A stretch of DNA of 64,000 nucleotides from Clostridiales bacterium. GTDB lineage: Bacteria; Bacillota; Clostridia; Saccharofermentanales; Saccharofermentanaceae. Below are positions 1,653 through 44,824 of the stretch, piece by piece. Under the pieces are notes generated by a model. It was not told the DNA's origin. It ran no database searches and saw only the letters and a program-made list of their open reading frames with translations. How positions within the stretch are numbered: position 1 is the first letter of the stretch; the number at the start of each line of letters is the position of its first letter. The position numbers and the translations under genes are program-made. The stretch covers positions 1 through 64,000 of the forward strand of contig JAFWFV010000026.1 in the NCBI GenBank assembly GCA_017515465.1, written 5' to 3'.

Positions 1653-3464
1653 TATCACAAACGGATATTAGCGACAGTCATTTCAGCGGCCATGCTCGTC
1701 ACGTCATTAACTTCCTGTGGCGAGGCTGATTATGTAGGAACAGCGGACTCTGTCAGGGAGGAGTACCTCACGATGACTCCCGAAGAGATCGTTGCCAGCC
1801 TGACACTGGAACAGAAAGCAGCACAGATGGTTCAGCCTGCAGTTTACAATGTGTCAGAATACGATATGTTGAACAACGATTACGGAAGCATCCTGTCCAC
1901 GCCTGGCAGTCTCAGTGCAGCCGGTTGGAGAGAACTGGTCGATGGGTATCAGAGTGCAGCATTGGATTCGGAGGCAGGCATTCCTTATCTCTACGGACAG
2001 GATGATGTGCACGGGGTCAATTACTGCCTTAATGCAGTGTATTTCCCGCATAACATCGGTGTTGGAGCAGCTAATGATGAGGAATTGTGCTATCAGCTGG
2101 GTCTCATTACCGCAGACGAAGCGAAACTGTGCCATATGCTGTGGAACTTCTCTCCCGTAATAGCACAGTCTGCAGACCCCAGGTGGGGCAGAACATACGA
2201 GTCATATGGTTCGGATCTGGATCTTATCACCAGACTGAGCACGGCCTATACACGCGGTCTTATTGACGGCGGACTGATAGCATGTGCCAAGCACTTTCTG
2301 GGTGACGGTAATGTTGTTTTCGGTACGGGAGAAGCGGATATGCTCATAGACAGGGGTGATGCACAGCTTACTGATGCTCAGATCGATGAACTCCTGGCTG
2401 TATATCAGGCGCAGATCGATGCCGGTGTGCAGACGATAATGATCAGTCACTCTTCTCTTAATGGCGTCAAGATGCATGAGAATGGCGAATACATCATGAG
2501 GCTTAAGAATGAGATGGGCTTTGAAGGCTTTATCGTAAGTGACTGGAATTCCGTTCAGAATACAAGTGCATCCACATACGAGGAGCAGGTGATCAACGGA
2601 ATCAATGCCGGTATCGACATGCTCATGGAGGTCGATCTCTTTGATGAGACCAGACAGATAATCGTTGAAGCAGTCAATAACGGGGACATATCTGAAGATC
2701 GTGTTAATGATGCAGTTACCAGGATAATCAAGGTCAAGATGGATGCGGGCATTTTTGCAGACCCTCTCTGCGAGAACCTTGAGACCGTACAGCAGGAGAC
2801 CGGTTCTGATGAATACAGGAAAGTTGCAGAGGAACTGGTCGAGAAGAGCCTTGTACTGCTCAAGAATGATAATGATATCCTTCCTCTGCAGGCAGGCACG
2901 AAAGTCTATATCACAGGACCTGCAGCAGATAATGCACAGGCTCAGTGCGGCGGCTGGACCATTAGCTGGAATTCCAGTCCTTCAAAGGACATCGAAGGAG
3001 TAACCTCGATAATGGATGCTTTTGAGCTTTATGCAGACGAATATGGTATTGAAGTGATCACAGATCCATCCCGCGCCTCAGAAGCGGATGTAGTCCTGCT
3101 TTGTGTTGGAGAACAGGCATATGCCGAGTGGAACGGCGATACTGAAGACCTTCAGCTCTGCGGAAGCCTGGGTCTTGCGGGGAATGCCGAAGCAATAGAT
3201 GAAGCAACATCTCTAGATAAGCCTGTGGTTACTCTCATAGTTGCAGGCAGACATGTTATCCTCGATCCTGATGATGTCAGCGGCTGGGACAGCATCGTAA
3301 TGTGTTATCTGCCGGGATCTGAAGGAAAGGGGATCTCCGATGTTCTTTGTGGTTGTGCTGACTTTACGGGCAGGCTGCCTTCCCCGTGGTACGGATCTGT
3401 TGATCAGATAGGAACAGACGATTGTGTTTATGAGGCCGGATATGGCCTGTCTTATCCTGAATGA
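1650..3464 (+). CDS. Glycoside hydrolase family 3 lipoprotein (beta-glucosidase type)
   Basis: This is a secreted, lipid-anchored GH3 enzyme likely to release glucose from beta-glucans or oligosaccharides. It has a signal peptide ending in lipobox LTSC (Cys about residue 23). The (beta/alpha)8 domain shows GIPYLYGQDDVHG, the Lys-His pair at about K214-H215 (AKHFLGDG) and the nucleophile motif FIVSDW with Asp about residue 298. The second, alpha/beta sandwich domain has VGEQAYAEWNGD, which matches the loop carrying the acid/base Glu in barley ExoI-like enzymes, and ends with PGSEG and GYGLSYP. At 604 residues it has both catalytic domains but no C-terminal fibronectin-type domain. Start is GTG, supported by AAGGAG. 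Exact substrate cannot be told. Confidence 0.92.
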   Translation: MYHKRILATVISAAMLVTSLTSCGEADYVGTADSVREEYLTMTPEEIVASLTLEQKAAQMVQPAVYNVSEYDMLNNDYGSILSTPGSLSAAGWRELVDGYQSAALDSEAGIPYLYGQDDVHGVNYCLNAVYFPHNIGVGAANDEELCYQLGLITADEAKLCHMLWNFSPVIAQSADPRWGRTYESYGSDLDLITRLSTAYTRGLIDGGLIACAKHFLGDGNVVFGTGEADMLIDRGDAQLTDAQIDELLAVYQAQIDAGVQTIMISHSSLNGVKMHENGEYIMRLKNEMGFEGFIVSDWNSVQNTSASTYEEQVINGINAGIDMLMEVDLFDETRQIIVEAVNNGDISEDRVNDAVTRIIKVKMDAGIFADPLCENLETVQQETGSDEYRKVAEELVEKSLVLLKNDNDILPLQAGTKVYITGPAADNAQAQCGGWTISWNSSPSKDIEGVTSIMDAFELYADEYGIEVITDPSRASEADVVLLCVGEQAYAEWNGDTEDLQLCGSLGLAGNAEAIDEATSLDKPVVTLIVAGRHVILDPDDVSGWDSIVMCYLPGSEGKGISDVLCGCADFTGRLPSPWYGSVDQIGTDDCVYEAGYGLSYPE

Positions 3465-3534
3465 TTCTGGGAGGGAAGCAGTATTTATATGAAACTTCGA
3501 AACAGGCGATTAAGTAACAATGAGGATGGTGTCT

Positions 3535-4770
3535 ATGGCTAGGAGATTTTCTTTAATAATGGTATTTGCTCTTCTGCTTTCTTCATTTATGTTGTTGTCA
3601 GGCTGCAGCAATGCTGATGAAGGGTTGAAATACTATGAACTGACTGATGCTTCTTTGTATCAGTTTATGGAGGACTATGAGGGCCCTGATGATGCTTATC
3701 TGTGTGTTGTTGAGGAATATGCCGAGGCTGAACTGACGGTCCCTTCAACATACAAGGGCAAGCCGGTCGTTGCAGTATCCTCCGGGACCAACAACATGTC
3801 ACAGGCAAACGTTAAGGAACTAATCCTTTCTGAGGGAATAATGTATGTTGATTCAGGTTTTTCTGGATATAAGAATCTCACCAGCGTTTCTTTCCCAAGT
3901 TCTCTTGTGGGAGTATATACATCATTTAATGGATGTAATTCTCTCAAATCGCTGGAGTTCCCCGGTAATGTTACTATCAAGTACAGCTTCTCACGTTGCA
4001 GCAATCTTGAAAGTATAGTCTACAGAGGAAGTTCAAATGAGATCTCTGATGACAGCTATCTGGCAGATCCTAAGCTGCCCGGATCCCCTGATTATGCACC
4101 CGACGGTGGAACTGCAACTGAAACTACAAGAGTTACTGAACCTGAAATGAATGAATATGATTACAACATGCTGATGGAAGAGGTTCAGAGTACAGGTTCT
4201 GATTGGGCAGAAGGCATCATGGAACGCGCCATTGCTGCTCTGGTTGATTCCGGTGATGTTTCAGGCACCACTCTTGATGGTAAGAAGATGTTTGCTTTCG
4301 ATGGCGACAATGGAGCGGCATTTACCGGTGATGAAGCCCGGGATCGATATACATCTGATTTTGAGCGGGATGGAGCTGTTATCTGCGGTAAGTATTATTA
4401 TTCTGATGATTCTTTCCTTTTCAGTTTGTATTTGAGGCCTTTTAATGCGGATCCTGATCTGTCTGACTATGATTTTATCGACGTTTCAACGAACTCATGC
4501 GTCGATTCTTTTGCGGGAACGACCGATGAATGCAGATACCTGATCGTAGTTATGGGTGTGGTTTCTGATGTTGACGAGGAGTTTTACATGGGAGGGATTG
4601 ACCGTGAGACGGTATCGACAGAAGTCCTCATAATCGATGTGGATAGTGAAGAGATCGTTCATATTGAACACATCGGTGTCAGCAGACCCGGTACAACCGC
4701 ACAACGTCCTGTTGGAAACATGCTTGAAGCAGATGCTCTGGAATATGTAAGGACGGTCTGTTCGCAGTAA
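3535..4770 (+). CDS. Lipoprotein with a leucine-rich (BspA-like) segment (411 aa)
   Basis: A signal peptide ends in LLSGC, a good lipobox, so the protein should be anchored to the outer face of the membrane. Residues roughly 60-165 contain LRR_5-like repeats (VKELILSEG, LTSVSFPSSLVGV, LKSLEFPGN). A Thr/Glu-rich linker follows and the C-terminal half (about 200-411) is a separate domain I cannot name; its end has a LIIDVDSEEIVHIEH strand pattern. The ATG at 3535 is preferred because GAGG lies 9 bases upstream; ATG at 3520 in frame is an alternative. The function may be surface binding. Its neighbour at 5080 is a lipoprotein of similar size and may share the C-terminal domain. Confidence 0.75.
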   Translation: MARRFSLIMVFALLLSSFMLLSGCSNADEGLKYYELTDASLYQFMEDYEGPDDAYLCVVEEYAEAELTVPSTYKGKPVVAVSSGTNNMSQANVKELILSEGIMYVDSGFSGYKNLTSVSFPSSLVGVYTSFNGCNSLKSLEFPGNVTIKYSFSRCSNLESIVYRGSSNEISDDSYLADPKLPGSPDYAPDGGTATETTRVTEPEMNEYDYNMLMEEVQSTGSDWAEGIMERAIAALVDSGDVSGTTLDGKKMFAFDGDNGAAFTGDEARDRYTSDFERDGAVICGKYYYSDDSFLFSLYLRPFNADPDLSDYDFIDVSTNSCVDSFAGTTDECRYLIVVMGVVSDVDEEFYMGGIDRETVSTEVLIIDVDSEEIVHIEHIGVSRPGTTAQRPVGNMLEADALEYVRTVCSQ

Positions 4771-4805
4771 ATTGATCCTCAGGATGATGTTTGAATAAAT
4801 GAGTA

Positions 4806-4835
4806 TTGTGAGCAAGAGAATGCGTTTGTTATAAT
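4806..4835 (+). promoter_or_regulatory. Promoter with extended -10, no gene directly behind it
   Basis: TTGTGA (4806-4811, 4 of 6 to consensus), an 18-base spacer and a perfect TATAAT (4830-4835) preceded by TGT, the extended -10 form. The nearest downstream start codon of a convincing gene is at 5080. Confidence 0.6.
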
Positions 4836-5007
4836 GCCCCCTTGCATGTGGCGCAAATACTGACATGGATCTCTCCATTTAAGTATAATTCCATTACCTG
4901 AGGTACAGGAGTGGCAATAGGACAGTGTGCGGCACAGAGTGCATTTTTGCACTTAAGACATCTTTCGGCTTATTTTTTTGTTGAAGTCATGACCGCTAGC
5001 CGCGTTT

Positions 5008-5037
5008 TTCAAGTGATGACAGTTTTTCTGTTATAAT
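5008..5037 (+). promoter_or_regulatory. Promoter for the lipoprotein gene at 5080
   Basis: TGTTATAAT at 5029-5037 is a perfect extended -10. The -35 candidate TTCAAG (5008-5013, spacer 18) is poor, as is common when an extended -10 is present. The expected transcript starts about 35 bases before the ATG. Confidence 0.55.
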
Positions 5038-5079
5038 ATATAAGTCGGTGAGACAGATGAAGAAGAGTGAGGAAATGCT

Positions 5080-6330
5080 ATGAGGAGAAGACTCTCAGTA
5101 TTGTTGATATTCTGCATTTTGTCGAATCTGCTGATGTTTTCAGGCTGCGGCAAGAGTTTTACAGGTCCGTACGCAGCTCAGCTTGAAGCAGCTTCCCGTT
5201 TGAGTTCTCTGAAGAATGATGACAAGTCGCAAATGGTGACTTTTTATGAGTCTTATAACCGAAAGGATTACTTACCTTTGGAAGATTGTCCCGCTCTGGT
5301 CTTGACTATCAAGAACATTAATAAAGTGGATGAAGTTGTTGAAAGGGTTAAGGAAGAGTTCGCAGGTATTGATGTGCCATGGCTTGTTGTTGAGGATTTT
5401 GAAGATCTCGTTCTTGATGATCTGAAAGATAATGACTTTGCATCCCTCGGTATCGTAATCACCAAATGCACATCCTCTGAAATAACCTTCCACTATTCTC
5501 CTCCGATTGATGAGATCGATAATCTTACGAGGCTTGGACCTGCCAGAATTCCGGATGATGATGCTGCAGATTATGATATTCTTCCTGATGTTGAAGAACT
5601 TATCCTTTGCAACGAACTGTTCTGGCTTGATAAATGCCCAAATGTGGAGAAATTGAATATTGTTGCTGATTCAGGATCTGTTCTTGAAATACTGATAGAT
5701 CCGTCAAAAGTTATCTGTATCCCTTCGCTGAATGAGATTACGGTTGACGAATCATCTTTGGGTAAAGCTGTTGCATATGCTCTCTTTATGGATAATCCGC
5801 AGATAGTGACCATCAATGGCGAGAATGCGGACTCTTTCGATTTTACAGGCGGTCTTGAAGGCGCCGGACTGGATCGGTTTAATCAAGCTGTACTCCGTTA
5901 CAAAGCAGACAGGATAGATCTGTCAGGATTTACACAGATATCTTCTGATGATGCGGTATTGCACGGAGCAGTGACTGTCGTCGGATATGATGGTGCAGAA
6001 GAAGCATCCCAATATAATTCTCTGTCACGCTACCTCACAGAAGAAGAACTGTCACACATATCGCAGAGCGGTGATCTCGGGGACACGGTTATAAGACTTA
6101 CGACTGAAGAACAAGTGGACGGAGGCTATTCCGACGGCAGAGCGTCCTATGAGCTCAGTGTATATATGGAAGTGATAGATCTGCAAAGCAGGACTGTTAC
6201 GGAGAGGACACGCATTCAGCGTAATTCCGGGTCTGCAGTTATTTCGAATGGAACAGGAAGCAGAAGAGGTCAGTTTTCTGTCGAAAGATTTTGCGCAACC
6301 CTCTCTGAACTGATGGCAAGATCATACTGA
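5080..6330 (+). CDS. Hypothetical lipoprotein (416 aa)
   Basis: The N-terminus is a classical lipoprotein signal (basic MRRR, hydrophobic core, lipobox FSGC at about residues 20-23). The mature part is acidic, with no membrane segment. Around residues 90-250 there are leucine/isoleucine strands spaced like a degenerate leucine-rich repeat (VEELILCNELFWLDKC, VEKLNIVADSG, SLNEITVDESS), which would suit a surface-exposed solenoid. The last 100 residues form another domain ending VYMEVIDLQSRTVTERTRI. I do not recognise a family. Its size and layout mirror the lipoprotein at 3535-4770, which suggests a duplicated or co-functioning pair, although it has its own promoters. Confidence 0.72.
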   Translation: MRRRLSVLLIFCILSNLLMFSGCGKSFTGPYAAQLEAASRLSSLKNDDKSQMVTFYESYNRKDYLPLEDCPALVLTIKNINKVDEVVERVKEEFAGIDVPWLVVEDFEDLVLDDLKDNDFASLGIVITKCTSSEITFHYSPPIDEIDNLTRLGPARIPDDDAADYDILPDVEELILCNELFWLDKCPNVEKLNIVADSGSVLEILIDPSKVICIPSLNEITVDESSLGKAVAYALFMDNPQIVTINGENADSFDFTGGLEGAGLDRFNQAVLRYKADRIDLSGFTQISSDDAVLHGAVTVVGYDGAEEASQYNSLSRYLTEEELSHISQSGDLGDTVIRLTTEEQVDGGYSDGRASYELSVYMEVIDLQSRTVTERTRIQRNSGSAVISNGTGSRRGQFSVERFCATLSELMARSY

Positions 6331-6362
6331 TCTGATTATCTGATCAAAAACAAAGGAGCCCT

Positions 6363-6387
6363 CACTTCACCATGCGGAGTGCCTTTT
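6363..6387 (+). terminator. Weak candidate terminator
   Basis: CACTTC (6363-6368) can pair with GGAGTG (6376-6381) around a 7-base loop with one G-U pair, followed by CCTTTTA. The stem is short and the T run only four bases, so this is tentative. Confidence 0.3.
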
Positions 6388-6470
6388 ATATTATCCGGAG
6401 CAGTTGACATATCCTTCATTCTGAGTTTTAATCTCAAAGGTTATTTTTTATATTATCTGGAGAATATAGT

Positions 6471-6932
6471 ATGGCAGCAGACGTTAAGTTTAGTGTTAAA
6501 GAGGCGGTTAATAATCAGATCCTGACTCCTGTTAGCGTAAGCGAGGAACTTGAACAGGAGTTTATCAAGAAGTCCAGGAGTGCAGCCTGGAAACTTCTTC
6601 CGTTATCGATAATCGTGAGTGTGGTAGTTCTTGCAATTATCATACTGGTTATCTATTTTCTGAGGTTTGCGATCATCAGTACTCTGGCACTGATAAGTAT
6701 CGGATATCCTGCTTTTGCTGTTTATAATATCGTATCGACGTCCAAAGCGATCAAGAAGCATGACTATGAGTTCCTGTCCTGCGAGATAGTAGGCAAGGAT
6801 GACAACGGATACAGGGTCAGGGGACTGGAGGCGCACGCTATTACGCCCCTGATCGGCAAAAAGGAATATAACCCCGGCGAGCAGGTAATAGTTGCAAGAT
6901 TAAACGATGAGTTGAGCCTGATCTCAGAGTAA
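6471..6932 (+). CDS. Small membrane protein, two helices and a C-terminal beta domain (153 aa)
   Basis: Residues about 42-65 and 68-88 are two adjacent membrane helices connected by a very short turn. The C-terminal 55 residues (YEFLSCEIVGKDDNGYRVRG and then GKKEYNPGEQVIVARL) look like a small beta-barrel or OB-like domain on the cytoplasmic side, by the positive-inside rule (K/R near TM ends). The start ATG follows GGAG at about 6459. I do not know the family. It sits alone between lipoprotein and hydrolase genes. Confidence 0.65.
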   Translation: MAADVKFSVKEAVNNQILTPVSVSEELEQEFIKKSRSAAWKLLPLSIIVSVVVLAIIILVIYFLRFAIISTLALISIGYPAFAVYNIVSTSKAIKKHDYEFLSCEIVGKDDNGYRVRGLEAHAITPLIGKKEYNPGEQVIVARLNDELSLISE

Positions 6933-7030
6933 AAGATGCATCTTGCCGTCAATTATTGCATCTTGCCTTCTGGAGTATTGTGATCGCGGATGATATGCCA
7001 TATAACTGACCTCAGGAAAGGCGGTGCAAT

Positions 7031-8356
7031 ATGGCATATTTACTTTTGATCGTTTTATTGATAACGGAGACCGGTTTCTCCGTATTTGAACTCACCCGAA
7101 CAACTGTTAAGCGTGAGTGGACTCCCAAGCGTGTCCTGGTGAATGGGGTTCAACTTGGGATATTCCTTCTCATGACCCTTCTACCGGGTATCGACTTCGG
7201 ATTCAGGTTTACTGCTCTTCTTATAGTCCTGATCCTGAGACTTGTGGTTTCCGGGATATTTGCTTTGGCTTACCGTAAGAACGATTCGCAAAAGAAAAAG
7301 GCTGCTATTGTTTTCAGCGCATTGATCAGCGTTGTCCTCATAGCTGCTAATATGCTTCCTGCGTTCATGTTTTCGGATTATCATGGACGCCCTTTGACAG
7401 GTGAATATGAGGTCGTGGAAGATCAGATAATACTTACTGATACTTCCAGAACAGAGAAATTTGAAAATGACGGATCCTGCAGGGAGATACCCGTTCATTT
7501 CTACTATCCCGATGATTCTTCCATCGCAAGTCACAGTCTGCCCCTTGTTATATTCTCCCATGGTGCGTTCGGATATTACCAGAGCAATGCATCAGCATAT
7601 ATGGAACTTGCCAGTCACGGGTATGTTGTGGCCAGCCTGGATCACCCTTACCATGCGTTCTTTACTGAGGATTCATCAGGCAAGCTTATCACTGTTGATC
7701 CTGAATTCATCCGGACTGCCATGTATGTCGGTGGAAATGATAACGATATGAGCGAAGATGAACTCTTCGGTATCACTTCAAAATGGATGGAGCTTCGTGA
7801 GGCTGACGTGAATTTCGTTATCGACGAGCTGAAGGCGGGAACATATGAACAGGAGTGGGGAAGGATGATGGATACCGGCAGGATAGGATTGTTCGGACAC
7901 TCCCTGGGAGGTGCGACGATGGTAACAGTAGGCAGGAGGGATGACGTTTCTGCGGTAATAGACATCGACGGTTCGATGCTCGGTGAACAGACCGGAGTAG
8001 CAGACGGGATGCCTGTAGTAAACGAGGAACCTTATACAACACCTCTGCTGTCTATAGATAACGACGAACACCACCTGAGCAGGATAGAGGCCTATGAAAC
8101 TGGATATGCCTATACCAATAATGTTATACTTGATAACGCAACAGAAGGCTTCAGCACGTATTTCAGAGGCGCGGCTCACATGGATCTTACGGATCTTCCC
8201 CTGTTCAGCCCTTTCCTGGCGGGAATGCTGAATACGAGCGAGAGTTCGGTCGACCATGAGGAGTGCATCGATACTCTTAATGCTCTCGTGCTTAAGTTCT
8301 TTGACTGCTATCTTAAAGGAGAAGGCGGATTTGCCGTAAACGAGTACTATCTTTGA
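7031..8356 (+). CDS. Membrane-bound alpha/beta hydrolase, PAF-acetylhydrolase-like (441 aa)
   Basis: Four N-terminal membrane helices (about residues 1-20, 40-55, 58-80, 93-115) are followed by an extracytoplasmic alpha/beta hydrolase domain. The nucleophile elbow is GHSLGG with Ser about residue 291; VIFSHGAFGYYQSN and SLDHPYHAFF resemble the oxyanion-hole and following strand of platelet-activating-factor acetylhydrolases, and a late His lies in RGAAHMDLTDL. The predicted reaction is ester hydrolysis of a lipid or acylated substrate; the substrate is unknown. A strong RBS (AGGAAAGGCGG) precedes the ATG. Its stop overlaps the start of the LytTR gene (TGATG), so hydrolase, regulator and DUF3021 protein are one translationally coupled unit. 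Confidence 0.85.
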   Translation: MAYLLLIVLLITETGFSVFELTRTTVKREWTPKRVLVNGVQLGIFLLMTLLPGIDFGFRFTALLIVLILRLVVSGIFALAYRKNDSQKKKAAIVFSALISVVLIAANMLPAFMFSDYHGRPLTGEYEVVEDQIILTDTSRTEKFENDGSCREIPVHFYYPDDSSIASHSLPLVIFSHGAFGYYQSNASAYMELASHGYVVASLDHPYHAFFTEDSSGKLITVDPEFIRTAMYVGGNDNDMSEDELFGITSKWMELREADVNFVIDELKAGTYEQEWGRMMDTGRIGLFGHSLGGATMVTVGRRDDVSAVIDIDGSMLGEQTGVADGMPVVNEEPYTTPLLSIDNDEHHLSRIEAYETGYAYTNNVILDNATEGFSTYFRGAAHMDLTDLPLFSPFLAGMLNTSESSVDHEECIDTLNALVLKFFDCYLKGEGGFAVNEYYL

Positions 8357-33141: not shown

Positions 33142-34191
33142 ATGGAAACCAGACTGGACAGATATGAAGGTGCGAAGGAAAACAAGATCAATCAGCTGCG
33201 TCAGTTGATCGAGGAATCCGATAACGTTGTATTCCTCGGAGGTGCAGGCGTCTCGACCGAGAGCGGCATCCCTGATTTCAGGAGCGGTGAAGGTATCTAT
33301 AACCAGGAGAGCGGACTTAAGTACCGTCCCGTGGACATCATCTCCCATTCATTCTTCATGGAACATCCGGATGAATTCTATGACTTCTACAAGCGTAAGC
33401 TGCTCTATCCTGATGCAAAACCCAACAAAGCACATAAGGCTCTCGTCAGGCTGGAAAAGCAGGGCAAGCTCAAGGCTACAATCACACAGAACATCGATAA
33501 CCTCCACCAGGAGGCAGGAAGTACTACGACCATCGAGCTCCACGGCTCAGTATTCCGCAATTACTGCATGGAGTGCGGCAAGAAGTTCGATCTCGAATAC
33601 GTCGTCGAGCATGAGGGTATCCCTTACTGCGACAAGTGCGGCGGCATGATCAGACCTGACATCGTATTATACGAGGAGAATCTGGAGCACCAGAACGTTG
33701 ACGGCGCTATCAAGGCGATAAAGAAAGCAGACCTGCTCATTATCGGCGGTACGTCACTGACAGTTTATCCTGCGGCAACATTTGCCCAGTTCCTCAAGCA
33801 CGACAAGGTTGTCATAATCAACAAGAGTTCAACATATCTCGACCTGCAGGCACTCCTTACCATTCATGACAGCATAGGTGATGTCCTCGACAGTGCGATC
33901 CCCAAGACCGTTCCTGACAAGAAGCCTGCTACAAAGAAGACCGCAGCAAAGAAGACAACTTCCAAGAAGACTTCCACAGCCAAGAAGGCAGATACTGATA
34001 AGAAAACATCCGCCTCCAAGAAGACAACATCTTCTGCCAAGAAGGCGACCGCTTCCAAGAAGGAGACTTCCGCCAAGCAACCTGCAGCAAAGAAACCTGC
34101 AGCAAAGAAACCTGCTGTTTCCAAAAAGGCAACAGATGCCAAGAAGCCTGCTGATAAGAAAAAGACCGGAAGCAAAAAGAGCAAGGAATGA
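33142..34191 (+). CDS. Sirtuin deacetylase with a lysine-rich histone-H1-like tail (349 aa)
   Basis: Residues 15-250 are a complete Sir2 domain: GAGVSTESGIPDFRS, TQNIDNLH, catalytic His at about 134 (LHGSV), a Zn ribbon with Cys at about 142, 145, 163 and 166, GGTSLTVYP and INKSSTYLD. It should remove acetyl or other acyl groups from lysines using NAD. From about residue 255 to 349 the chain changes completely to repeats of Ala/Ser/Thr/Pro with lysine pairs (34 Lys in 95 residues, 15 KK or KKK groups), a pattern like bacterial histone-H1 homologues. The tail should be disordered, bind DNA or RNA, and could be its own substrate. GAGGGG precedes the ATG. Confidence 0.92.
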   Translation: METRLDRYEGAKENKINQLRQLIEESDNVVFLGGAGVSTESGIPDFRSGEGIYNQESGLKYRPVDIISHSFFMEHPDEFYDFYKRKLLYPDAKPNKAHKALVRLEKQGKLKATITQNIDNLHQEAGSTTTIELHGSVFRNYCMECGKKFDLEYVVEHEGIPYCDKCGGMIRPDIVLYEENLEHQNVDGAIKAIKKADLLIIGGTSLTVYPAATFAQFLKHDKVVIINKSSTYLDLQALLTIHDSIGDVLDSAIPKTVPDKKPATKKTAAKKTTSKKTSTAKKADTDKKTSASKKTTSSAKKATASKKETSAKQPAAKKPAAKKPAVSKKATDAKKPADKKKTGSKKSKE

Positions 34192-36089: not shown

Positions 36090-37330
36090 GATCATTCATT
36101 GAAAAGACAGCATTTTTCGGCAACACTAGCGCAGAGCGTCTGATGGCAGAATATGGCAGTCCTCTGTACGTATATAACGAGAATATCATCAGGAATAACC
36201 TTAAGACACTGTCCGGTCTCATAACCAAGTATCCTTATGTTACCAACTACTCGATGAAGGCTAATTCCAACATGACCCTTCTCAAGATAGCACTCGAGGA
36301 AGGGATCAACGCTGATGCAATGAGTGAAGGTGAGATGAGGCTTCTGCTCAAGGCAGGATTCCCCTCTGACAGGATCTTTTTTGTTCCGAATAACGTTTCT
36401 GCAGATGAACTCAGATTTGCGATCGAAAACAACATCATGACCAGTCTCGACAGCATAGATCAGCTGGATCTTTACGGACAGCTCAATCCAGGCGGCAGGT
36501 GTGCAGTCAGGCTCAATCCCGGGGTAGGGGCAGGTCACCATGAAAAGGTAGTAACGGCAGGCAAGAATACCAAGTTCGCCATCACTGACGACCAGCTGGA
36601 TGAGCTCTTTGCCACTGCAAAGAAACATGATCTCACCACAGCAGGAATAAATCAGCACATCGGATCGCTCTTTATGGATCCCGAGCCCTTCCTGGCATCT
36701 GTCAGGAATCTCATCAACATGGCCGTCAGGTTCGACAAGCTGGATTTCATCGATTTCGGCGGCGGATACGGAGTTCCTTACCATAAGGTCTCTGAGGATG
36801 AGCAGCCTTTTGATTTCGTGACTTTCGAGAAGAAGTTTGAACAGCTCCTGGATGAGGCCGTTTTCAAGCTCGGATATACACCCCTGTTCAAGACTGAGCC
36901 CGGCAGATTTGCATTCTGCGAGGGCGGTGTCCTGCTGGGCAGGGTTCATGCTGTAAAGAACAATGCAGACAAGAGATTTGCAGGCACGGATATCGGAATG
37001 AACATCCTGGCGCGTCCCACTCTGTACGGATCCTGGCATGATGTTGAAGTCATCCACGATGACCGGGTTACTACTGATTCCCCCGAGGTTATATCTGTTG
37101 TGGGCAATATCTGTGAGACGGGCGATATCATTGCAAAGGAGAGACTCCTGCCTCACATCGAGACAGGCGATATCGTATGCGTTCTCGATGCCGGTGCTTA
37201 CGGCTACGCCATGGCTTCCAATTATAACTGCAGATTGAGACCTGCTGAGGTATTGATCACCTCCAGCGGTGACGCAAAGCTCATCAGGCGTAGAGATACA
37301 TATGATGATTTGTTCAGAAATCTTCTCTGA
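36086..37330 (+). CDS. lysA: Diaminopimelate decarboxylase (414 aa)
   Basis: PLP-dependent fold-III enzyme that makes L-lysine from meso-diaminopimelate. The PLP lysine is in NYSMKANSN (about K58), the phosphate-binding loop in FGGGYG, the acceptor region in EPGRFAFCEGG, and the active-site Cys block in GNICETGDIIAKERLLP. The C-terminal AGAYGYAMASNYN is diagnostic for this family. At 414 residues the length is normal. It overlaps the MutS-like gene by 4 bases. A carboxynorspermidine decarboxylase is an alternative for this fold but the CETGD block favours LysA. Followed by about 110 bases holding the promoter of the kinase operon. Confidence 0.92.
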   Translation: MRSFIEKTAFFGNTSAERLMAEYGSPLYVYNENIIRNNLKTLSGLITKYPYVTNYSMKANSNMTLLKIALEEGINADAMSEGEMRLLLKAGFPSDRIFFVPNNVSADELRFAIENNIMTSLDSIDQLDLYGQLNPGGRCAVRLNPGVGAGHHEKVVTAGKNTKFAITDDQLDELFATAKKHDLTTAGINQHIGSLFMDPEPFLASVRNLINMAVRFDKLDFIDFGGGYGVPYHKVSEDEQPFDFVTFEKKFEQLLDEAVFKLGYTPLFKTEPGRFAFCEGGVLLGRVHAVKNNADKRFAGTDIGMNILARPTLYGSWHDVEVIHDDRVTTDSPEVISVVGNICETGDIIAKERLLPHIETGDIVCVLDAGAYGYAMASNYNCRLRPAEVLITSSGDAKLIRRRDTYDDLFRNLL

Positions 37331-37387
37331 TAGATAGCTGAAATTTACTCATTTCATACAATTCTGCCACATTTTTGTCAAAATTTG

Positions 37388-37416
37388 TTGCCTGAAACAG
37401 TAAACTAATCTATAAT
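37388..37416 (+). promoter_or_regulatory. Promoter of the kinase-VWA-PP2C operon
   Basis: TTGCCT (37388-37393), 17-base spacer, perfect TATAAT (37411-37416). It is one of the best matches in the window. The start point near 37423 is about 20 bases before the ATG at 37445. Confidence 0.7.
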
Positions 37417-37435
37417 AAATAATTATTATTAGATT
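37407..37435. promoter_or_regulatory. Imperfect AT-rich dyad over the -10 and start site
   Basis: AATCTATAATAA (37407-37418) faces TTATTATTAGATT (37423-37435), an inverted repeat with one extra base on the right. It covers the -10 and transcription start, as an operator would, but AT-rich dyads arise easily by chance. Confidence 0.35.
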
Positions 37436-37444
37436 GGTGATACT

Positions 37445-39211
37445 ATGTCTTTGGAATTGTTGAGCGATTATAAGAATCTTATAATTGATTACTCTGTCGT
37501 CAGGGAGTTTGGCGGTACTTCCGTCTTCTTCGAACTGATGGACCGCTTGGCAACCAACGGACAGGACGTATATGTCAGCTCCGCATTTAAGCTCCTGCAT
37601 TACTGTCTAATCCATCAGGCTGACTCAAAGGATGATGCTGCTGCATCAGCAATGAAGGAACTGTGTTCCATACTCCTTCCGCTGCATAAGCTGCATTCAG
37701 TCCAGACAACAGATACATGTGAATTCATCAAGGCGATAGCTCCCATCGGGAATTGCTGCATCACACTTGCCGCTAACGGCATCTTTTATAAGAGACTGTG
37801 TGAGAAGAGACCTGCGTTCGATTGTGACATTTATGTTCTCTCATCCGCAGGAGGCAGCCTCTATCACGGCTCTGAGGAATTCTACAATGGTAATCCTTTC
37901 CCCGCGGTCAGCCCCATAGCTCTTAAGAAGACCTATCTCGATGCTGACGCCTTCTGTAATGTCGGTGACAAGGTCGTATGCGGCAATCAGAAGGTCCTCG
38001 AGCTGACCAAGAGGATCAGTTCCGGTGCCGAGGGTATGGTATTCCTTACTGATAACAAGCTCAAGGTAGCCAAGATCTACCACAGAGGCGTCATCACGCC
38101 CCTCCGCTGGAGCAAGCTTACCAAGATGGTCTCAATGGGCATCAAGAGCGCAGGCATCTGTTGGCCTCAGGATCTGATCTTCTTTAAGGGGATCCCCGTC
38201 GGCTATACAATGTATCTCGGCAAGGGCAAGACATTAGGCAACGTCTTTGACGGACCTGATGCCATGATCAACAACTTCCCCGAATGGAAGAGGGAGGATG
38301 TAGCTGCAACGCTCATCAACCTGATCGAGAAATACCTCTATCTCCACATGCATAATATCGTTGCAGGAGATATCCAGCTCAAGAACGCTCTGCTCTATTC
38401 AACTTCTGCAGTCTATCTCATTGACATGGACTCTGTTCAGGTTGGAAACCTGCCCTGTCCCGTCGGTACTGAGGAATTCACTGATCCCAGGCTCTGGGGC
38501 AGGGATTTCGCAGGCTTTGTCAGGGAACTGGAGGATGAGGATTACTCGATCGCGATGCTCGTATTCTCAGCGTTGTTCTGCGGCCTTCATCCCTACGCGA
38601 CACGTAACGGCGCAGAGACCTTGCGTGAGGAGATCCTGGAAAAGAATTTCCCTTATACCCTGGATAACAGCGATGAGGAGCATATCCCGAGAGGCGGATA
38701 TAATTTCATCTGGCAGTACCTGCCCGAGAAACTCAGGACAATGCTCTACAACACTTTCAAGCTGGGCAGGAGCTACGAGGCGCTCCAGTGGTACGAAGCA
38801 GTTCTCGAGTATAAGGAGGACCTGTCTTCCAGGAAGTACGACGATGAAGAAGCATATAAGGTATTCCCCAAGATGGATTACCACGTTACTGCAGAGGCTC
38901 AGGAAAAGATGCCCGGTGACAGGAGCCAGACTGCTCCCGGTTCCAGGAAGAGATTCTCATCCCTTGCTGAGGCTGCCAAGTATTCATCGGCCAATAATCC
39001 TTTTGCAAAGGCAGCAAACAGCGATAATCCCGGTCTTAGCGGCAGTGCATTCAGTGCACCATCGGGATTTACAAATAATGACAAACCGGTAAACGATGCT
39101 CCCAAGGCTCCCTTCGTACCAAAGGCAATGGGTAATGTTCCCCAGAACCAGCCTGACAATACGACTAGCGACGAAGAGCAGATCAAGAAAAAGAGATTCG
39201 GTCTTTTCTGA
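37445..39211 (+). CDS. Protein kinase of a TerY-P-like triad, with N-terminal alpha/beta domain (588 aa)
   Basis: Three parts. Residues 1-150 are an alpha/beta region with NLIIDYSVVREFG and later CCITLAANGIFYKRL, a layout like PIN/NYN nucleases or receiver-like folds; the name PIN is inference. Residues about 180-480 are a protein kinase: glycine-rich loop ISSGAEGMVF, VAK with Lys about 210, catalytic GDIQLKN with Asp about 309 and Asn about 314, and a DMD motif at about 327. The usual HRD His-Arg is replaced by Ala-Gly but catalytic residues are present. Residues 490-588 are a disordered Ser/Asn/Pro-rich tail ending KKKRFGLF. It begins the operon; the VWA gene follows after 28 bases. Confidence 0.85.
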   Translation: MSLELLSDYKNLIIDYSVVREFGGTSVFFELMDRLATNGQDVYVSSAFKLLHYCLIHQADSKDDAAASAMKELCSILLPLHKLHSVQTTDTCEFIKAIAPIGNCCITLAANGIFYKRLCEKRPAFDCDIYVLSSAGGSLYHGSEEFYNGNPFPAVSPIALKKTYLDADAFCNVGDKVVCGNQKVLELTKRISSGAEGMVFLTDNKLKVAKIYHRGVITPLRWSKLTKMVSMGIKSAGICWPQDLIFFKGIPVGYTMYLGKGKTLGNVFDGPDAMINNFPEWKREDVAATLINLIEKYLYLHMHNIVAGDIQLKNALLYSTSAVYLIDMDSVQVGNLPCPVGTEEFTDPRLWGRDFAGFVRELEDEDYSIAMLVFSALFCGLHPYATRNGAETLREEILEKNFPYTLDNSDEEHIPRGGYNFIWQYLPEKLRTMLYNTFKLGRSYEALQWYEAVLEYKEDLSSRKYDDEEAYKVFPKMDYHVTAEAQEKMPGDRSQTAPGSRKRFSSLAEAAKYSSANNPFAKAANSDNPGLSGSAFSAPSGFTNNDKPVNDAPKAPFVPKAMGNVPQNQPDNTTSDEEQIKKKRFGLF

Positions 39212-39239
39212 CCATCTATATAACTGAGGAGGTTCACAT

Positions 39240-39974
39240 ATGTCTGAGAATTTCAGTGCTTCGGATTTTGGCAACAGCACTAAGAGGAGATTGCCTATTT
39301 GTTTCTGTCTGGATACGTCCGGATCCATGATGGGTAATCCCATCAAGCAGCTCAACCAGGGCCTGGCCAATTTCCTTGCATCGATCAAGGCGAATGATGA
39401 CACGAGATCTGCAACTGATATATCGATAATCACATTCGGTTCTTCCGTTGAGATCGTAATGCCTTTCGGTAAGATCTCCAAGGACAAGACCCTGCCGGAG
39501 ATCTCAGCCTCAACGACTCTCACACCTATCGGTGAGGGCGTACTTACCGCACTCGAACTTCTGGATATGCGTAAGAAGGGCTACAAGGAGATGGGTATCA
39601 AGTACTATCAGCCCTGGCTCGTAGTCATTACTGACGGTGCTCCCCAGGGTCCCAATGCCATGGCAAACTATGAGACGGCCGTAAAGGCATGTAACGAACT
39701 GGAGCAGAACGATAAGCTCGTTGTTTTCAACATCGGTGTTGGTAACGGCGTTGACTTTGACCTGCTCAAGAAACTCTCGGTCAAGAGGCCCGAACCGATC
39801 TCCGTAAACTCAGCTGACTTCGGCAAGCTCTTTGAATTCCTCGGATCATCCAGCTCATCTGTCGTATCCTCAGGTATGAATGATGATGCTCTCTACAACA
39901 TCTCGACCGAACCCGAAGGTGAATCAGTAGGTGTAGATGATTTCTTCAGCTTTGTTGAGGAAGAAGGACAATGA
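39240..39974 (+). CDS. TerY-like VWA-domain protein (244 aa)
   Basis: A von Willebrand A domain with an intact MIDAS: DTSGS with Asp about 25, TPIGEG with the conserved Thr, and VITDGAPQG. It resembles the TerY family that pairs with kinases and PP2C phosphatases. No signal peptide, so it is cytoplasmic. It probably scaffolds or is modified by the neighbouring kinase and phosphatase. The tail after residue 200 is acidic and disordered with several Ser residues (SSSSSVVSSG). A strong TGAGGAGG RBS precedes the ATG; its stop overlaps the phosphatase gene start (ATGA), so their amounts are tied. Confidence 0.9.
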   Translation: MSENFSASDFGNSTKRRLPICFCLDTSGSMMGNPIKQLNQGLANFLASIKANDDTRSATDISIITFGSSVEIVMPFGKISKDKTLPEISASTTLTPIGEGVLTALELLDMRKKGYKEMGIKYYQPWLVVITDGAPQGPNAMANYETAVKACNELEQNDKLVVFNIGVGNGVDFDLLKKLSVKRPEPISVNSADFGKLFEFLGSSSSSVVSSGMNDDALYNISTEPEGESVGVDDFFSFVEEEGQ

Positions 39975-41065
39975 GCATAACCGTCGGTTCAGTAACTATC
40001 ATCGGTCAGAAGCACACCAACAGAGGCGTGCCCTGTGAGGACAACTCCATTGCAGTTGAAAAGAACGGCGTCAGCTGTGTCGTTGTTGCGGACGGAGCAG
40101 GATCCAAGCAGTATACACATGCCAGGTTCGGATCCAAAGCGTGTTGTGAAGCAATATCTGAACTGCTGACCGAACATTTCGACGCTCTTTATAACGAGAA
40201 CCGTGATGCAGCCATAAAGAGCCTGATCATTGCCAGGATCCATGTTGCTTTCGCCGACATCATCAAGGAGATGGAACTGGAATCCATCGAGCAGCTGTCG
40301 TGTACGCTGCTGTTTACTGCAGTCAAGGACAGGAGGGTCATTGCAGGTCATATCGGTGACGGACTTATTGTCGGGGTAACGACAGACGGTTTAAGCCCGC
40401 TTACTATGCCTCAGAACGATCCTGCAGGCCACACGTATTTCGTAACAGCCAATCATGCAGCGGATTACCTCAGGCTTGTTAAGACCACAACCGATAATCT
40501 GCATGCCATATGCCTCATGACAGACGGCGTTCAGGATTCCGTATACGATGAGAATTCCGGTCTGGTCAAGCCTGTTGTAGCCAGGATGGCAGAGACATTT
40601 TCATCCGGCAGGGAGTCAGGTGAAAATGAGATCAGGTCTATCCTGGAGAAGTTCATCGTAGGAGCCAGCAACACCAGCGATGATTCGTCCTTCGGTGTTC
40701 TCTATCTCGACGGAACCAAGGCTCCTGATTCATCCAAGCTCGCAGGAGCAGCAGATGCATTCCCGCGCTCTGAGGATACGTTCAAGAAACTTCAGGAGGA
40801 ACTGGTTCCCCAGGTCAAGAAGGCCAGGGACATAATCGTGGATGCGCACATCCACAAGGAGATCAATCCTTCTGAAAATGAAGAGGATCATGTTGCCAAG
40901 GGCAAGGCAGCAGAAAACGAACAGCAGGCTACAGAGACAGAGAGCCTTGTTGAAGACATTAAGGCGGCAGCCATGAAGAAGTCCAGATTGTATCTGGCGA
41001 TCGTGGTTGCTGAACTGATCGCGATCATCGGTCTCATCGCAGTACTGATCTTCGCAAACAGATAA
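39971..41065 (+). CDS. Tail-anchored PP2C phosphatase of the triad (364 aa)
   Basis: Residues about 1-260 are a PP2C_2-type Ser/Thr phosphatase with RGVPCEDNS, VADGAGS (Asp about 41), HIGDG, MTDGVQD and TSDDSSFG (Asp about 237 and 238), so the metal sites are complete. The stretch 265-335 is charged and helical. A single hydrophobic segment (about 340-362, LAIVVAELIAIIGLIAVLIF) ends the chain, a tail anchor that would hold the catalytic domain on the inner face of the membrane. It is likely to reverse the kinase. Translationally coupled to the VWA gene. Confidence 0.9.
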   Translation: MSITVGSVTIIGQKHTNRGVPCEDNSIAVEKNGVSCVVVADGAGSKQYTHARFGSKACCEAISELLTEHFDALYNENRDAAIKSLIIARIHVAFADIIKEMELESIEQLSCTLLFTAVKDRRVIAGHIGDGLIVGVTTDGLSPLTMPQNDPAGHTYFVTANHAADYLRLVKTTTDNLHAICLMTDGVQDSVYDENSGLVKPVVARMAETFSSGRESGENEIRSILEKFIVGASNTSDDSSFGVLYLDGTKAPDSSKLAGAADAFPRSEDTFKKLQEELVPQVKKARDIIVDAHIHKEINPSENEEDHVAKGKAAENEQQATETESLVEDIKAAAMKKSRLYLAIVVAELIAIIGLIAVLIFANR

Positions 41066-41078
41066 AGGGGGAATAATT

Positions 41079-41804
41079 ATGGAGGAAAATGAACGCAAGT
41101 ATGTGATACTTCCGGGAGTTCAGGTTCCCGACATGAAGACCATGAAGGAGGCATCATCTGATTTCAGTGAGCCCGGTGTCGGAGAGATAGAGATCCAGAT
41201 GCCGCGTACTTTTGATACTCCTGCAGAGGAAAAGAGACTCACACCAGATGAGATCAAGAGACTCCAGTCTCTCGGTGAGGAAGTTGCCGAGAATGAGGAG
41301 AGGATCGCCGAAGAGAGCAAGAGAAAGATGGAAGCAATAATGAGAAGTGCGGTAACGCAGTCTGCTTCCATGGATGATCTCCGTAAGACTGCCACACAGA
41401 TCGCCAGTGAGGAGAAACTCGCTGAGATCGAACAGCGTCAGAAGGAAGAGGAGGCAAAGCAGGCAGAGGAAGCTGAAAAGCAGAAGATGCGTGAGGAACG
41501 CCGTGCAATGCAGAAGAAGCAGCTTGAAGAGGCCAAGGCAAGAGCAGAAAAGCGTGCTGAGGAGGCTGCAAGTGAGCCTGTTTCTGAACCTGAAACAACG
41601 GATGCACCTGAGGCTGTTCCTGAGACGGAACAGGAACCTGCACCTGCAGAGGAGCCTGCACCTGCTCCAGAACCTGCTCCCGTACCCGAGCCTGTTCAGC
41701 CTGTAGCAGAAGCTGCTGTTGATACTGACATTGATTCTACAGGCGTCATCTCCAGTGATGAAGAGACATTTGAGGATTTCGGTGAATTCCTCGACGATAA
41801 CTGA
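41079..41804 (+). CDS. Acidic coiled-coil protein with Glu/Pro-rich tail (241 aa)
   Basis: No family is recognised. Residues about 50-165 are almost all charged helix (EEKRLTPDEIKRLQSLGEEVAE, then KQAEEAEKQKMREERRA), a predicted coiled coil. Residues 165-205 are E/P repeats (EPAPAEEPAPAPEPAP). The last 35 are acidic with Ser, Thr and Asp (STGVISSDEETFEDFGEF). It follows the phosphatase by 13 bases with a GGGGG RBS. It could be the adapter or substrate of the kinase; the acidic Ser/Thr tail would suit phosphorylation. Low-complexity composition limits what can be said. Confidence 0.75.
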   Translation: MEENERKYVILPGVQVPDMKTMKEASSDFSEPGVGEIEIQMPRTFDTPAEEKRLTPDEIKRLQSLGEEVAENEERIAEESKRKMEAIMRSAVTQSASMDDLRKTATQIASEEKLAEIEQRQKEEEAKQAEEAEKQKMREERRAMQKKQLEEAKARAEKRAEEAASEPVSEPETTDAPEAVPETEQEPAPAEEPAPAPEPAPVPEPVQPVAEAAVDTDIDSTGVISSDEETFEDFGEFLDDN

Positions 41805-41821
41805 TAGAGAAGAGTGATAAT

Positions 41822-43255
41822 ATGCCCGCCAAGAAGAGTAAAGAAGTAAAGAAGTCCAAGGAGATCATTGCAGATTTCCCCAATATGTACAAGGAAGCCT
41901 CCAAGGCAGACCTCAAGTCCTGCATGGACTTTGCCGAAGAATACAAGGCTTTCCTCGACATCTCAAAGACAGAGCGTGAATTCGTTAAGAACAGCATTCA
42001 GGCCTGCGAAGAACTGGGCTTTGTAGACATCGACAAGAAAAAGACGTTAAAAGCAGGAGACAAGGTCTATAAATCCGTAAAGGGCAAGGGCCTTGCCTGT
42101 GCCGTTATAGGAACTCATCCCTGCAGTGAAGGCTTTAATATCCTGGGAGCTCACGTTGATTCCCCCAGACTGGATCTGAAGCCCAATCCTCTCTACGAGG
42201 ACCATGAGACTGTCTATTTCAAGACCCACTACTACGGCGGCATCAAGAAATATCAGTGGACAACTATCCCTCTGGCGATCCACGGCGTCGTATATACCAG
42301 CGAGGGTAAAGAGATCGAGATCAATGTAGGTGAGGGAGAAAATGATCCCGTATTCTACATTACTGACCTGCTCATCCATCTTGGCAGTGAGCAGATGAGC
42401 AAGAAGGGTTCTGAGATCGTAACAGGCGAGGACCTCAATGTTGTGATCGGCGGTATCCCTGTCAGTGACAAGGATGCAAAAGATCCTTACAAGAAAGCTG
42501 TTATGCAGCTGCTTAATGATAAATACGGCATCGTTGAAAAAGACTTTGTTTCTGCTGAACTGGAGATCGTTCCTGCAGCCAAGGCCAGAGACGTAGGATT
42601 TGACAGGTCATATATCGCTGCCTACGGCCATGATGACAAGGTATGTGCATATCCTTCGCTCATGGCTCTGCTCGCACAGGAAAAGCCCGGCAGGACATGT
42701 GTTACCATCCTTACAGATAAGGAAGAGATAGGTTCATATTCCAACTCAGGCGCACAGTCAGCTATCTATGAGAACTTCCTGATGGAGCTCCTGGCCAAGA
42801 ACATGGGCGGCATAGACAAGTTCAACATGCTCGTTTACCGCAAGGCTATGGAGAACACCAAGATGCTCTCTACTGACGTTACTTCAGGCTACGATCCCAA
42901 GTATCCCGGTGCGTATGAGGTCAGGAATACAGCCTTTATGTCCCATGGGATCAAGATCGAAAAATATACCGGTGCCAGGGGCAAGTCCGGAAGCAGCGAG
43001 GCAAATGGTGACTTCGTATCCCAGATCGTTGATATCTTTGCAAAAAACTCCATCCCGTGGCAGACGGGAGAACTGGGCAAGATCGATGTGGGCGGTGGCG
43101 GAACCATCTCCGCATACATGGCCAAGACAGGCATGGATGTTGTTGACATCGGTATTCCCGTATGGTCCATGCATGCTCCCGTTGAGCTTATCTCCAAGAT
43201 CGACCTTTATTATCTTTATCTTGCTTATAAGGTATTCCTGGAAAACATCAAGTAA
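41822..43255 (+). CDS. M18 family aspartyl/general aminopeptidase (477 aa)
   Basis: Metal ligand motifs of the M18 family are present: GAHVDSPRLDLKP (first His and Asp), TDKEEIGSYSNSGAQS (catalytic Glu and metal-binding Glu), and a late His in VWSMHAPVE. The sequence HYYGGIKKYQWTTIPLAIHGVV is typical of bacterial M18 enzymes, which form dodecameric tetrahedra. It removes N-terminal residues from peptides in the cytoplasm. It begins 17 bases after the coiled-coil gene, and may be in the same transcript. Length is normal. Which amino-terminal residue it prefers is not visible. Confidence 0.92.
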   Translation: MPAKKSKEVKKSKEIIADFPNMYKEASKADLKSCMDFAEEYKAFLDISKTEREFVKNSIQACEELGFVDIDKKKTLKAGDKVYKSVKGKGLACAVIGTHPCSEGFNILGAHVDSPRLDLKPNPLYEDHETVYFKTHYYGGIKKYQWTTIPLAIHGVVYTSEGKEIEINVGEGENDPVFYITDLLIHLGSEQMSKKGSEIVTGEDLNVVIGGIPVSDKDAKDPYKKAVMQLLNDKYGIVEKDFVSAELEIVPAAKARDVGFDRSYIAAYGHDDKVCAYPSLMALLAQEKPGRTCVTILTDKEEIGSYSNSGAQSAIYENFLMELLAKNMGGIDKFNMLVYRKAMENTKMLSTDVTSGYDPKYPGAYEVRNTAFMSHGIKIEKYTGARGKSGSSEANGDFVSQIVDIFAKNSIPWQTGELGKIDVGGGGTISAYMAKTGMDVVDIGIPVWSMHAPVELISKIDLYYLYLAYKVFLENIK

Positions 43256-43261
43256 TGCTCT

Positions 43262-44824
43262 ATGTCGGGGAAGAATAAGAGAACAGTCGAACGCAAATTC
43301 GCGATCAAGAACAGCGTCGGTAGGATAATCATAATCGGTGCTCTCTTGATACTTCAGGTTGCGGTCCTGTTATTTGCATCTCTGTTCCTGTATTCGAAAT
43401 TCCCTCTGCTGATCTATATCATGTATGGTCTCGGACTGGTTTTCGTCATTGGTCTTAACGCCAAGGACAAGACGAATGACATCAAGCTCATCTGGGTGAT
43501 AATCATATTGTCGCTCCCGATGCTGGGCATCGTGCTCTATCTGCTGTTCCATTACTCTCCAGGTATGCATGTCATCAAGAAGAAGTTCAGGAACTCCGAT
43601 AATTCCATGATCGAGAACCTGCAGCAGGATGAAAAGACACGTCATGAGCTTGAAATTGCCGCACCTCATGAATACACGATGTTCAAATACCTCAAGGATT
43701 ATGCGTTATATCCTTTCTATACCAATACCGATACAAAGTTCTACGGTGATGCATCTGATTGCTACAAGGCAATGATCGATGACATGTGGAATGCAAAGGA
43801 ATACATCTTTCTGGAGTATCATGCTATCGAGAACAAGGAGGCTTTCGAGCCTCTGCATAACTGTCTGGCCGCAAAAGCCAGTCAGGGAGTGGATGTCAGG
43901 GTGCTTTATGATGATATCGGTTCATTCGTTTTCGTTAATCCCGATTTCAAGAAGATGCTGGAAAGCGAAGGGATAAAGTGTTCTATCTTCAATCCCATGA
44001 GCCCTCTGTTCGATGTGTTCATGAACAACCGTGACCACCGCAAGATATGTGTCATTGACGGCGAGATAGGTTATACGGGCGGGTTTAATATCGCCAACGA
44101 GTATTTTAATATCACCCATCCCTATGGCCAGTGGTTTGATACAGGCATCAGGATGGAAGGCCCTGCCGTCAAGAACCTTACTGTTATGTTCCTTTCCATG
44201 TGGGAGATCTATGATGACACCATGGATGTTATAGATGACAAATTCTTCCGTCAGGAGATCCCTGATAGGAATGGAAATGGTTTTATCGTTCCTTATGGTG
44301 ACAGCCCTCTGGATGACGAACTCACAGGAGAGAATGTTTATATCAACATACTTTATAATTCCAAAAAATACTGCTGGTTCACGACGCCTTACCTGGTCAT
44401 CTCCGAGAATATGAGAAGGGCCATCAGCCTCGCTTCCAAGCGGGGAGTAGATGTCAGGATAATCACTCCCGGCATCCCTGACAAGGTAACCGTTAACAAG
44501 CTTACAAAATCATATTATTCGTCACTGATAAATGACGGATGTAAGATATATGAATACATCCCCGGATTCATCCATGCAAAGATGTGCATCTCAGATGACA
44601 AGGTTGCGGTAGTCGGAACGATCAATATGGATTTCAGATCTCTCTACCATCACTTTGAGAATGCCGTTCTCATGTATGGAACAGACTGCATCCAGGACAT
44701 CAAAAAGTGCTTTGATGATCTTACTGAGGTATCGGAGGATGTAACTGGCAAGTTCTCGGTAAGGCCCAACGTCTTTATCCGCATCGGACGTTCGATCCTA
44801 AGGCTTGTGGCACCGATGCTGTAA
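43262..44824 (+). CDS. cls: Cardiolipin synthase (520 aa)
   Basis: Two N-terminal membrane helices (about residues 20-44 and 46-60, with a third hydrophobic segment about 75-98) are followed by two phospholipase D domains, with HKD motifs HRKICVID and HAKMCISD, each followed by the GG/GTxN context (GYTGGFN and VVGTINMD). It condenses two phosphatidylglycerols to cardiolipin and glycerol. The ATG comes 4 bases after the M18 stop with no good RBS, in line with coupled translation. This is a bona fide Cls family member; a close relative with unknown lipid substrate cannot be excluded. Confidence 0.92.
   Translation: MSGKNKRTVERKFAIKNSVGRIIIIGALLILQVAVLLFASLFLYSKFPLLIYIMYGLGLVFVIGLNAKDKTNDIKLIWVIIILSLPMLGIVLYLLFHYSPGMHVIKKKFRNSDNSMIENLQQDEKTRHELEIAAPHEYTMFKYLKDYALYPFYTNTDTKFYGDASDCYKAMIDDMWNAKEYIFLEYHAIENKEAFEPLHNCLAAKASQGVDVRVLYDDIGSFVFVNPDFKKMLESEGIKCSIFNPMSPLFDVFMNNRDHRKICVIDGEIGYTGGFNIANEYFNITHPYGQWFDTGIRMEGPAVKNLTVMFLSMWEIYDDTMDVIDDKFFRQEIPDRNGNGFIVPYGDSPLDDELTGENVYINILYNSKKYCWFTTPYLVISENMRRAISLASKRGVDVRIITPGIPDKVTVNKLTKSYYSSLINDGCKIYEYIPGFIHAKMCISDDKVAVVGTINMDFRSLYHHFENAVLMYGTDCIQDIKKCFDDLTEVSEDVTGKFSVRPNVFIRIGRSILRLVAPML

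Follow-up and report, generated by a model that had tools for sequence, protein, structure and literature searches.

A kinase, VWA and PP2C locus with an acidic fourth gene, conserved in the Saccharofermentanaceae and related to TerY-P/YegI triads

We analysed a window of 64,000 nucleotides (contig JAFWFV010000026.1, positions 1 to 64,000, assembly GCA_017515465.1) from a rumen bacterium of the Saccharofermentans family (Saccharofermentanaceae), in which positions 37445-41804 of the + strand hold four tandem genes, here called KIN, VWA, PP2C and CC4. A preceding reading of the same DNA from its letters alone (the sequence-only reading) had described four closely spaced genes on one strand, and both the coordinates and the spacing (28 bases between KIN and VWA, -4 between VWA and PP2C, and 13 between PP2C and CC4) agree with that description. 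The genes are as follows:

37445-39211, + strand: KIN, 588 residues, a YegI/TerY-P-type kinase with a predicted N-terminal PIN-like domain and a disordered tail
39240-39974, + strand: VWA, 244 residues, TerY/YegL-like, with a full metal ion-dependent adhesion site (MIDAS)
39971-41065, + strand: PP2C, 364 residues, a Ser/Thr phosphatase with a C-terminal membrane anchor
41079-41804, + strand: CC4, 241 residues, an acidic, Ala/Glu-rich protein predicted to be coiled-coil/disordered

The first three products have counterparts in Escherichia coli. Using profiles built from congeners and a search space set to 5000, KIN matched YegI (E 4e-21), VWA matched YegL (E 4e-32) and PP2C matched PphC (E 9e-8). 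Judged by these profiles, the three proteins are remote homologues of YegI, YegL and PphC and make up a TerY-P-type triad, the class to which the sequence-only reading had assigned them. A sequence search of the PDB gave weak matches for KIN and VWA and none for PP2C. Pfam recognised VWA (VWA, 3e-15) and PP2C (PP2C_2, 8e-35), while for KIN the Pkinase match fell below threshold (0.037). KIN is nevertheless taken to be a kinase because its AlphaFold model (residues 1-483, pLDDT, the predicted local distance difference test, 93) shows a kinase fold toward the C-terminal side, and because of its homology to YegI.

The functional residues that had been called intact in all three proteins proved invariant in family sets of about 100 homologues each. 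Lys210, Asp309, Asn314 and Asp327 of KIN, the four positions checked, are kept in 101/101 family homologues, with the HRD motif reading xGD. The MIDAS residues of VWA (Asp25, Ser27, Ser29, Thr95 and Asp132) are invariant wherever the family alignment is ungapped, and the metal-site residues of PP2C (Glu23, Asp24, Asp41, Asp130, Asp185, Asp237 and Asp238) are present in 97/97 homologues. VWA is the most conserved member of the unit, with a mean column identity of 81% in the genus. The domains and motifs within the four proteins lie at these positions:

37445-37900, + strand: PIN-like domain of KIN, residues 1-152 (from fold and position)
37970-38824, + strand: kinase domain of KIN, approximately residues 176-460 (from profile, model and residue counts)
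39185-39208, + strand: C-terminal basic-aromatic peptide KKKRFGLF of KIN (from comparison of homologue tails)
39936-39956, + strand: C-terminal acidic-aromatic motif DDFFSFV of VWA (from homologue tails)
40988-41056, + strand: C-terminal transmembrane helix of PP2C, with KKSR just before it (from hydropathy)
41091-41183, + strand: conserved N-terminal module KYxILPGVxxPDxKxIxxAxSDFxxPG of CC4 (from alignment)
41754-41798, + strand: C-terminal motif SDEETFEDFGEFLDD of CC4, similar to the VWA tail motif (from alignment and homologue tails)

All four genes occur in a fixed order in 38/38 complete loci of the genus and in 20/20 loci from four other Saccharofermentanaceae genera, so that within the family we found neither kinases lacking their VWA and PP2C neighbours nor sets in which the fourth gene is not conserved. 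KIN is present in 55 of the 58 congeners sampled, the three without it being assemblies that are 64-80% complete. Sampling of four other family genera gave VWA in 22 genomes, and no match at E <= 1e-10 was obtained in other families of the order. On every contig that extends far enough, sirtuin and MutS-like genes lie upstream of the unit, often together with lysA. Past CC4 the neighbouring genes change in most relatives, which makes CC4 the 3' edge of the conserved unit. In one relative (L054 of genome G053, 2061-8075), a 6 kb cassette separates VWA from PP2C and all four unit genes are kept; reading its translations identified response regulator, histidine kinase, and ATP-binding cassette (ABC) permease and ATPase genes, and the cassette is also seen in L169. 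This fixed chromosomal place in all genera sampled suggests that the unit is now a normal part of cell signalling.

Two features of KIN had been overlooked in the sequence-only reading, namely its N-terminal domain and its membrane-type tail. The N-terminal domain was modelled alone with a pLDDT of 93, and PIN domains or proteins containing them are among its leading Foldseek matches. The VIA list is led by the PIN domains of SMG6 (Z 8.4) and SMG5 (Z 8.1), with those of AF0591 and Utp24 also among the best fold matches, over a PIN Z range of about 7-8.4. Weak matches to universal-stress-protein and methyltransferase folds were set aside because PIN accounts for the top Foldseek rows and most of the leading VIA rows, and the order of strands and helices fits PIN. 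Relatives outside the family have a Pfam PIN_4 domain at the corresponding position of their kinases and keep the PIN signature (D..., EL, TQDxDL) intact. In KIN, Asp15 is the sole acid kept, those at the EL and TxDxDL motifs having been lost. We consider the domain, with moderate confidence in the fold, to be PIN-like with a degenerate active site.

Both enzymes appear to be linked to the membrane. For PP2C, the tail anchor noted earlier recurs throughout, as hydropathy exceeds 1.8 at the C-terminus of 97/97 homologues; because KKSR precedes this helix, the catalytic domain is expected to be cytoplasmic. The kinase C-terminal tail is either low-complexity or a membrane helix across homologues. 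A helix is present in 16/101, all of them kinases of the other family genera; in nearly all of the remainder, KIN of the window included, the C-terminus is a basic-aromatic peptide, for example KKKFFGLF or GLFGKFKKGLF. The two kinds of tail alternate at one place, which suggests that both serve membrane attachment. No CxxC pairs occur in the C-terminal part of the kinase in the 101 homologues, and Pfam identified no zinc ribbon or OB-fold there.

The fourth protein, CC4, has a net charge of -34 and is of the acidic coiled-coil type, as had been proposed. Its homologues range from 114 to 448 residues and are acidic throughout, with a mean identity of 30%, and it belongs to no Pfam family. Among 196 class genomes sampled, matches to the CC4 profile were confined to its own genus. 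Short forms in other family genera score weakly, so more distant relatives may be missed by this profile, which also found no match beside the mobile PIN-kinase triads described below. Among the genomes sampled, CC4 appears to be specific to the Saccharofermentanaceae. The strict tail motif D[DES]F..[FY][LMVI] is present in 82/100 VWA homologues (in DDFFKF-like form), and the VWA tail motif is unique among the 46 main genes of the window. The likeness of this tail to that of CC4 suggests that the two proteins share a docking site.

The proposal that the unit has its own promoter was also borne out, in that a promoter-like site lies ahead of KIN and recurs in near relatives. Two candidate control sites precede the gene:

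37362-37382, + strand: operator-like inverted repeat TTTTGnCA-N6-TGnCAAA, with one mismatch in the window, directly 5' of the -35 box
37388-37416, + strand: promoter-like site TTGCCT-17-TATAAT, 28 bases before the KIN ATG

The promoter-like site is the best (10/12) of four in 36900-43400, and its hexamers recur in the near relatives L122, L125 and L131. Promoter-like sites are not in excess over 36900-43400 as a whole, and the call accordingly rests on position and conservation. The inverted repeat keeps the same position in the nearest relatives (L121-L125), with a looser match in L130 and L133, and is a possible operator. A regulon scan with the repeat pattern gave counts near those of a reversed-pattern control and no clear regulon. 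At the other end of the unit, the M18 peptidase gene starts at 41822, 17 bases past CC4, and no + strand terminator-like site was seen between them, so in this species the transcript may continue into the peptidase gene. Upstream, the sirtuin gene (33142-34191) encodes a long, repetitive C-terminal tail rich in lysine, alanine and serine; homologues of this gene, of varying length, usually stand next to the unit on its upstream side in the family.

Outside the family, relatives are few and scattered. In the class samples, G355 was the sole genome closely matching both the kinase and VWA. Its locus contains an HTH-PIN (helix-turn-helix and PIN) gene, a PIN-kinase with a zinc ribbon, two VWAs and a PP2C, set among restriction genes, and the congener-built KIN profile matches its PIN-kinase at E 3e-72. 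The phylum sample added five further scattered genomes. On the Lysinibacillus pFN9B and Paenarthrobacter plasmids the order is kinase-VWA-PP2C, as in the unit, and on proteobacterial plasmids and in E. coli it is VWA-PP2C-kinase, in one case with the first gene annotated merely as hypothetical. In the kinase tree, the family forms one clade (100/100) and lies closer to the PIN-kinases than to the YegI types (89/82). In G738 (L231, 7801-14936) the TerY-P arrangement is duplicated, with two tandem PIN-kinases ahead of two VWAs and one PP2C. On pFN9B of Lysinibacillus capsici (L236, 12442-13098), the gene directly after kinase-VWA-PP2C encodes a protein that ends in a J-domain-like (HPD) sequence and is unlike CC4 by eye.

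Taken together, we propose, with a probability of roughly 0.6, that the unit is a Ser/Thr phosphorylation switch, reversible and tethered to the membrane, of the TerY-P/YegI-YegL-PphC type, which is now inherited vertically as a core locus in the family and has gained a family-specific fourth component. The kinase tail would bind the inner face of the membrane, where kinase and phosphatase would face each other. There the kinase may autophosphorylate and phosphorylate CC4, VWA or both, with PP2C resetting these proteins. VWA would bridge kinase and target through its metal site, and CC4 is the most likely candidate for a partner or scaffold. The DDFxxF-like C-terminal peptides of VWA and CC4 might compete for a common docking site, and the non-catalytic PIN-like domain could act as a sensor or docking module rather than as a nuclease. 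As to origin, descent from a mobile, defence-type triad of PIN-kinase, VWA and PP2C is most likely. More tentatively, and at somewhat less than even odds, a single domestication of such an anti-phage-type triad at the root of the family would have brought inactivation of the PIN nuclease, membrane tethering of the kinase and PP2C, and the gain of CC4 as an obligate acidic component, to give a core membrane signalling pathway parallel to PrkC/Stp. The sequence-only reading, which had suggested a phospho-signalling unit with CC4 as substrate or adapter, is upheld in part; the relation to mobile PIN-kinases and the family-wide vertical inheritance had escaped it.

Several observations weigh against this proposal. 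The strict DDFxxF motif is found in only 40/96 CC4 homologues (DDFSEFL-like), and the short CC4 forms of some genera are without it. The low complexity of CC4 leaves substrate and adapter equally possible. Gene order could persist partly through the general stability of this chromosomal stretch, in which upstream genes are kept too. The PIN-kinase grouping in the tree is moderately supported and involves long branches. For the N-terminal domain, a Z of 8.0 is also attained by two terpene synthase chains with no relation to PIN, which is why the fold call is only moderate, and comparison of its profile with those of canonical PIN-kinases was not significant (E 0.55 and 0.14), so that the PIN-like label rests on fold and position.

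We considered other explanations for the same locus. The functional unit might be the first three genes, with CC4 a passenger retained by local synteny; this would fit the low identity and variable length of CC4 and the retention of upstream housekeeping genes, but CC4 is the sole gene after the triad to be kept in 58/58 complete loci while its downstream neighbours change, its N-terminal module is conserved, it is always acidic, and in many members its tail is VWA-like. We regard a mere passenger as unlikely. A little less credible still is a working anti-phage TerY-P system, in which infection would shift the balance of kinase and phosphatase and toxic phosphorylation would halt growth. Anti-phage activity of TerY-P is reported in PMC11090510 and PMC7699616, prophage kinase-kinase-phosphatase (KKP) modules act via kinase toxicity (PMC11341870), and the nearest relatives outside the family sit on plasmids and in restriction islands. 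Set against this, the unit occupies one fixed locus in each genus sampled, and the neighbours examined are housekeeping genes, with no defence genes (restriction, integrase or others) among them. The active-site acids of the PIN-like domain are lost, PADLOC models gave no TerY-P match, and the kinase peptide patterns used found no match in IMG/VR viral contigs.

Very improbable, in our assessment, is a Ter-dependent response to metal or tellurite stress with VWA as the metal sensor. PMC11090510 describes TerY-P triads alongside Ter systems and as proposed switches that sense metals, and the MIDAS here is intact; yet TerD was not found in the whole of the bacterium's own genome (assembly 93% complete), nor TerC in that genome or in four family relatives. 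The absence of ter genes first noted for the window thus holds for TerD and TerC in the genome and for TerC in the four relatives, and to that extent the idea of a stand-alone unit is supported. Stand-alone status is not itself new, as both YegI-PphC-YegL of E. coli and anti-phage TerY-P are earlier examples of kinase, VWA and PP2C sets that lack ter genes. Triads of the TerY-P/YegI type are known mainly from plasmids, defence islands or the weakly expressed yeg locus of E. coli. The novelty here lies in the fixation across a family, in the presence of a fourth gene, in a PIN-like domain that has degenerated and in the apparent membrane link of both kinase and phosphatase. The physiological role of such triads is unsettled, and a fixed core set with CC4 and membrane anchors offers a tractable case for finding substrate and signal. 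The phosphorylation switch proposed here may also exemplify how a defence module becomes ordinary cell signalling, a change detectable through the lost nuclease residues of its PIN-like domain.

Among known systems, YegI-PphC-YegL of E. coli shares with the unit its three homologous components, a chromosomal location with no ter genes in the portion that was read, and a kinase-phosphatase pair linked to the membrane. PMC13232886 reports that YegI is a membrane-bound kinase capable of autophosphorylation and that its phosphate is removed by PphC, and this lends plausibility to the enzymatic core of the unit. The E. coli system differs in its order (VWA-PP2C-kinase) and in having no acidic fourth gene; PphC is shorter (253 residues), without the C-terminal tail of PP2C, and YegI is without an N-terminal PIN-like domain, since its kinase domain begins at the N-terminus. 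The PASTA kinase/Stp pairs (PrkC-PrpC type) likewise combine a membrane kinase with a PP2C partner in Bacillota. The unit is not simply such a pair, because PASTA open reading frames of 716-734 residues, with a PP2C approximately 1-2 kb away, sit at separate loci in the family members G001, G005, G017 and G107. In the bacterium's own genome, unlike those four, no PASTA open reading frame of PrkC length with a PP2C was seen, reflecting either loss or an assembly gap; PP2C of the unit is the sole PP2C_2 match there.

The mobile PIN-kinase triads (Lysinibacillus pFN9B, the Paenarthrobacter plasmid, Fusobacterium vincentii, and G355, G738, G755, G513 and G759) share the kinase-VWA-PP2C order and carry an N-terminal PIN domain at the place where KIN has its PIN-like one, and theirs is the kinase clade nearest to that of the family; the G759 kinase, like some of the family kinases, ends in a membrane-helix-like stretch. 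They differ in having intact PIN acids and a scattered distribution on plasmids or beside restriction genes, with a zinc-ribbon region in G355 and, in some, a helix-turn-helix gene upstream. TerY-P triads in their tellurium-linked, CoCoNuT-associated and anti-phage forms resemble the unit in combining a TerY-like VWA, a PP2C and a Ser/Thr kinase. According to PMC11090510, their kinases carry at the C-terminus a zinc ribbon in the CoCoNuT form or an OB-fold in the anti-phage form; neither was found here, nor were TerD and TerC. Association with Ter or with DNA processing and restriction, which is frequent in TerY-P without strictly defining it, was likewise not seen for the unit among the neighbours examined; its own features are the fixed core locus, the extra fourth gene and the membrane tails. 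On this comparison, the unit is best filed as a variant of the TerY-P/YegI triad.

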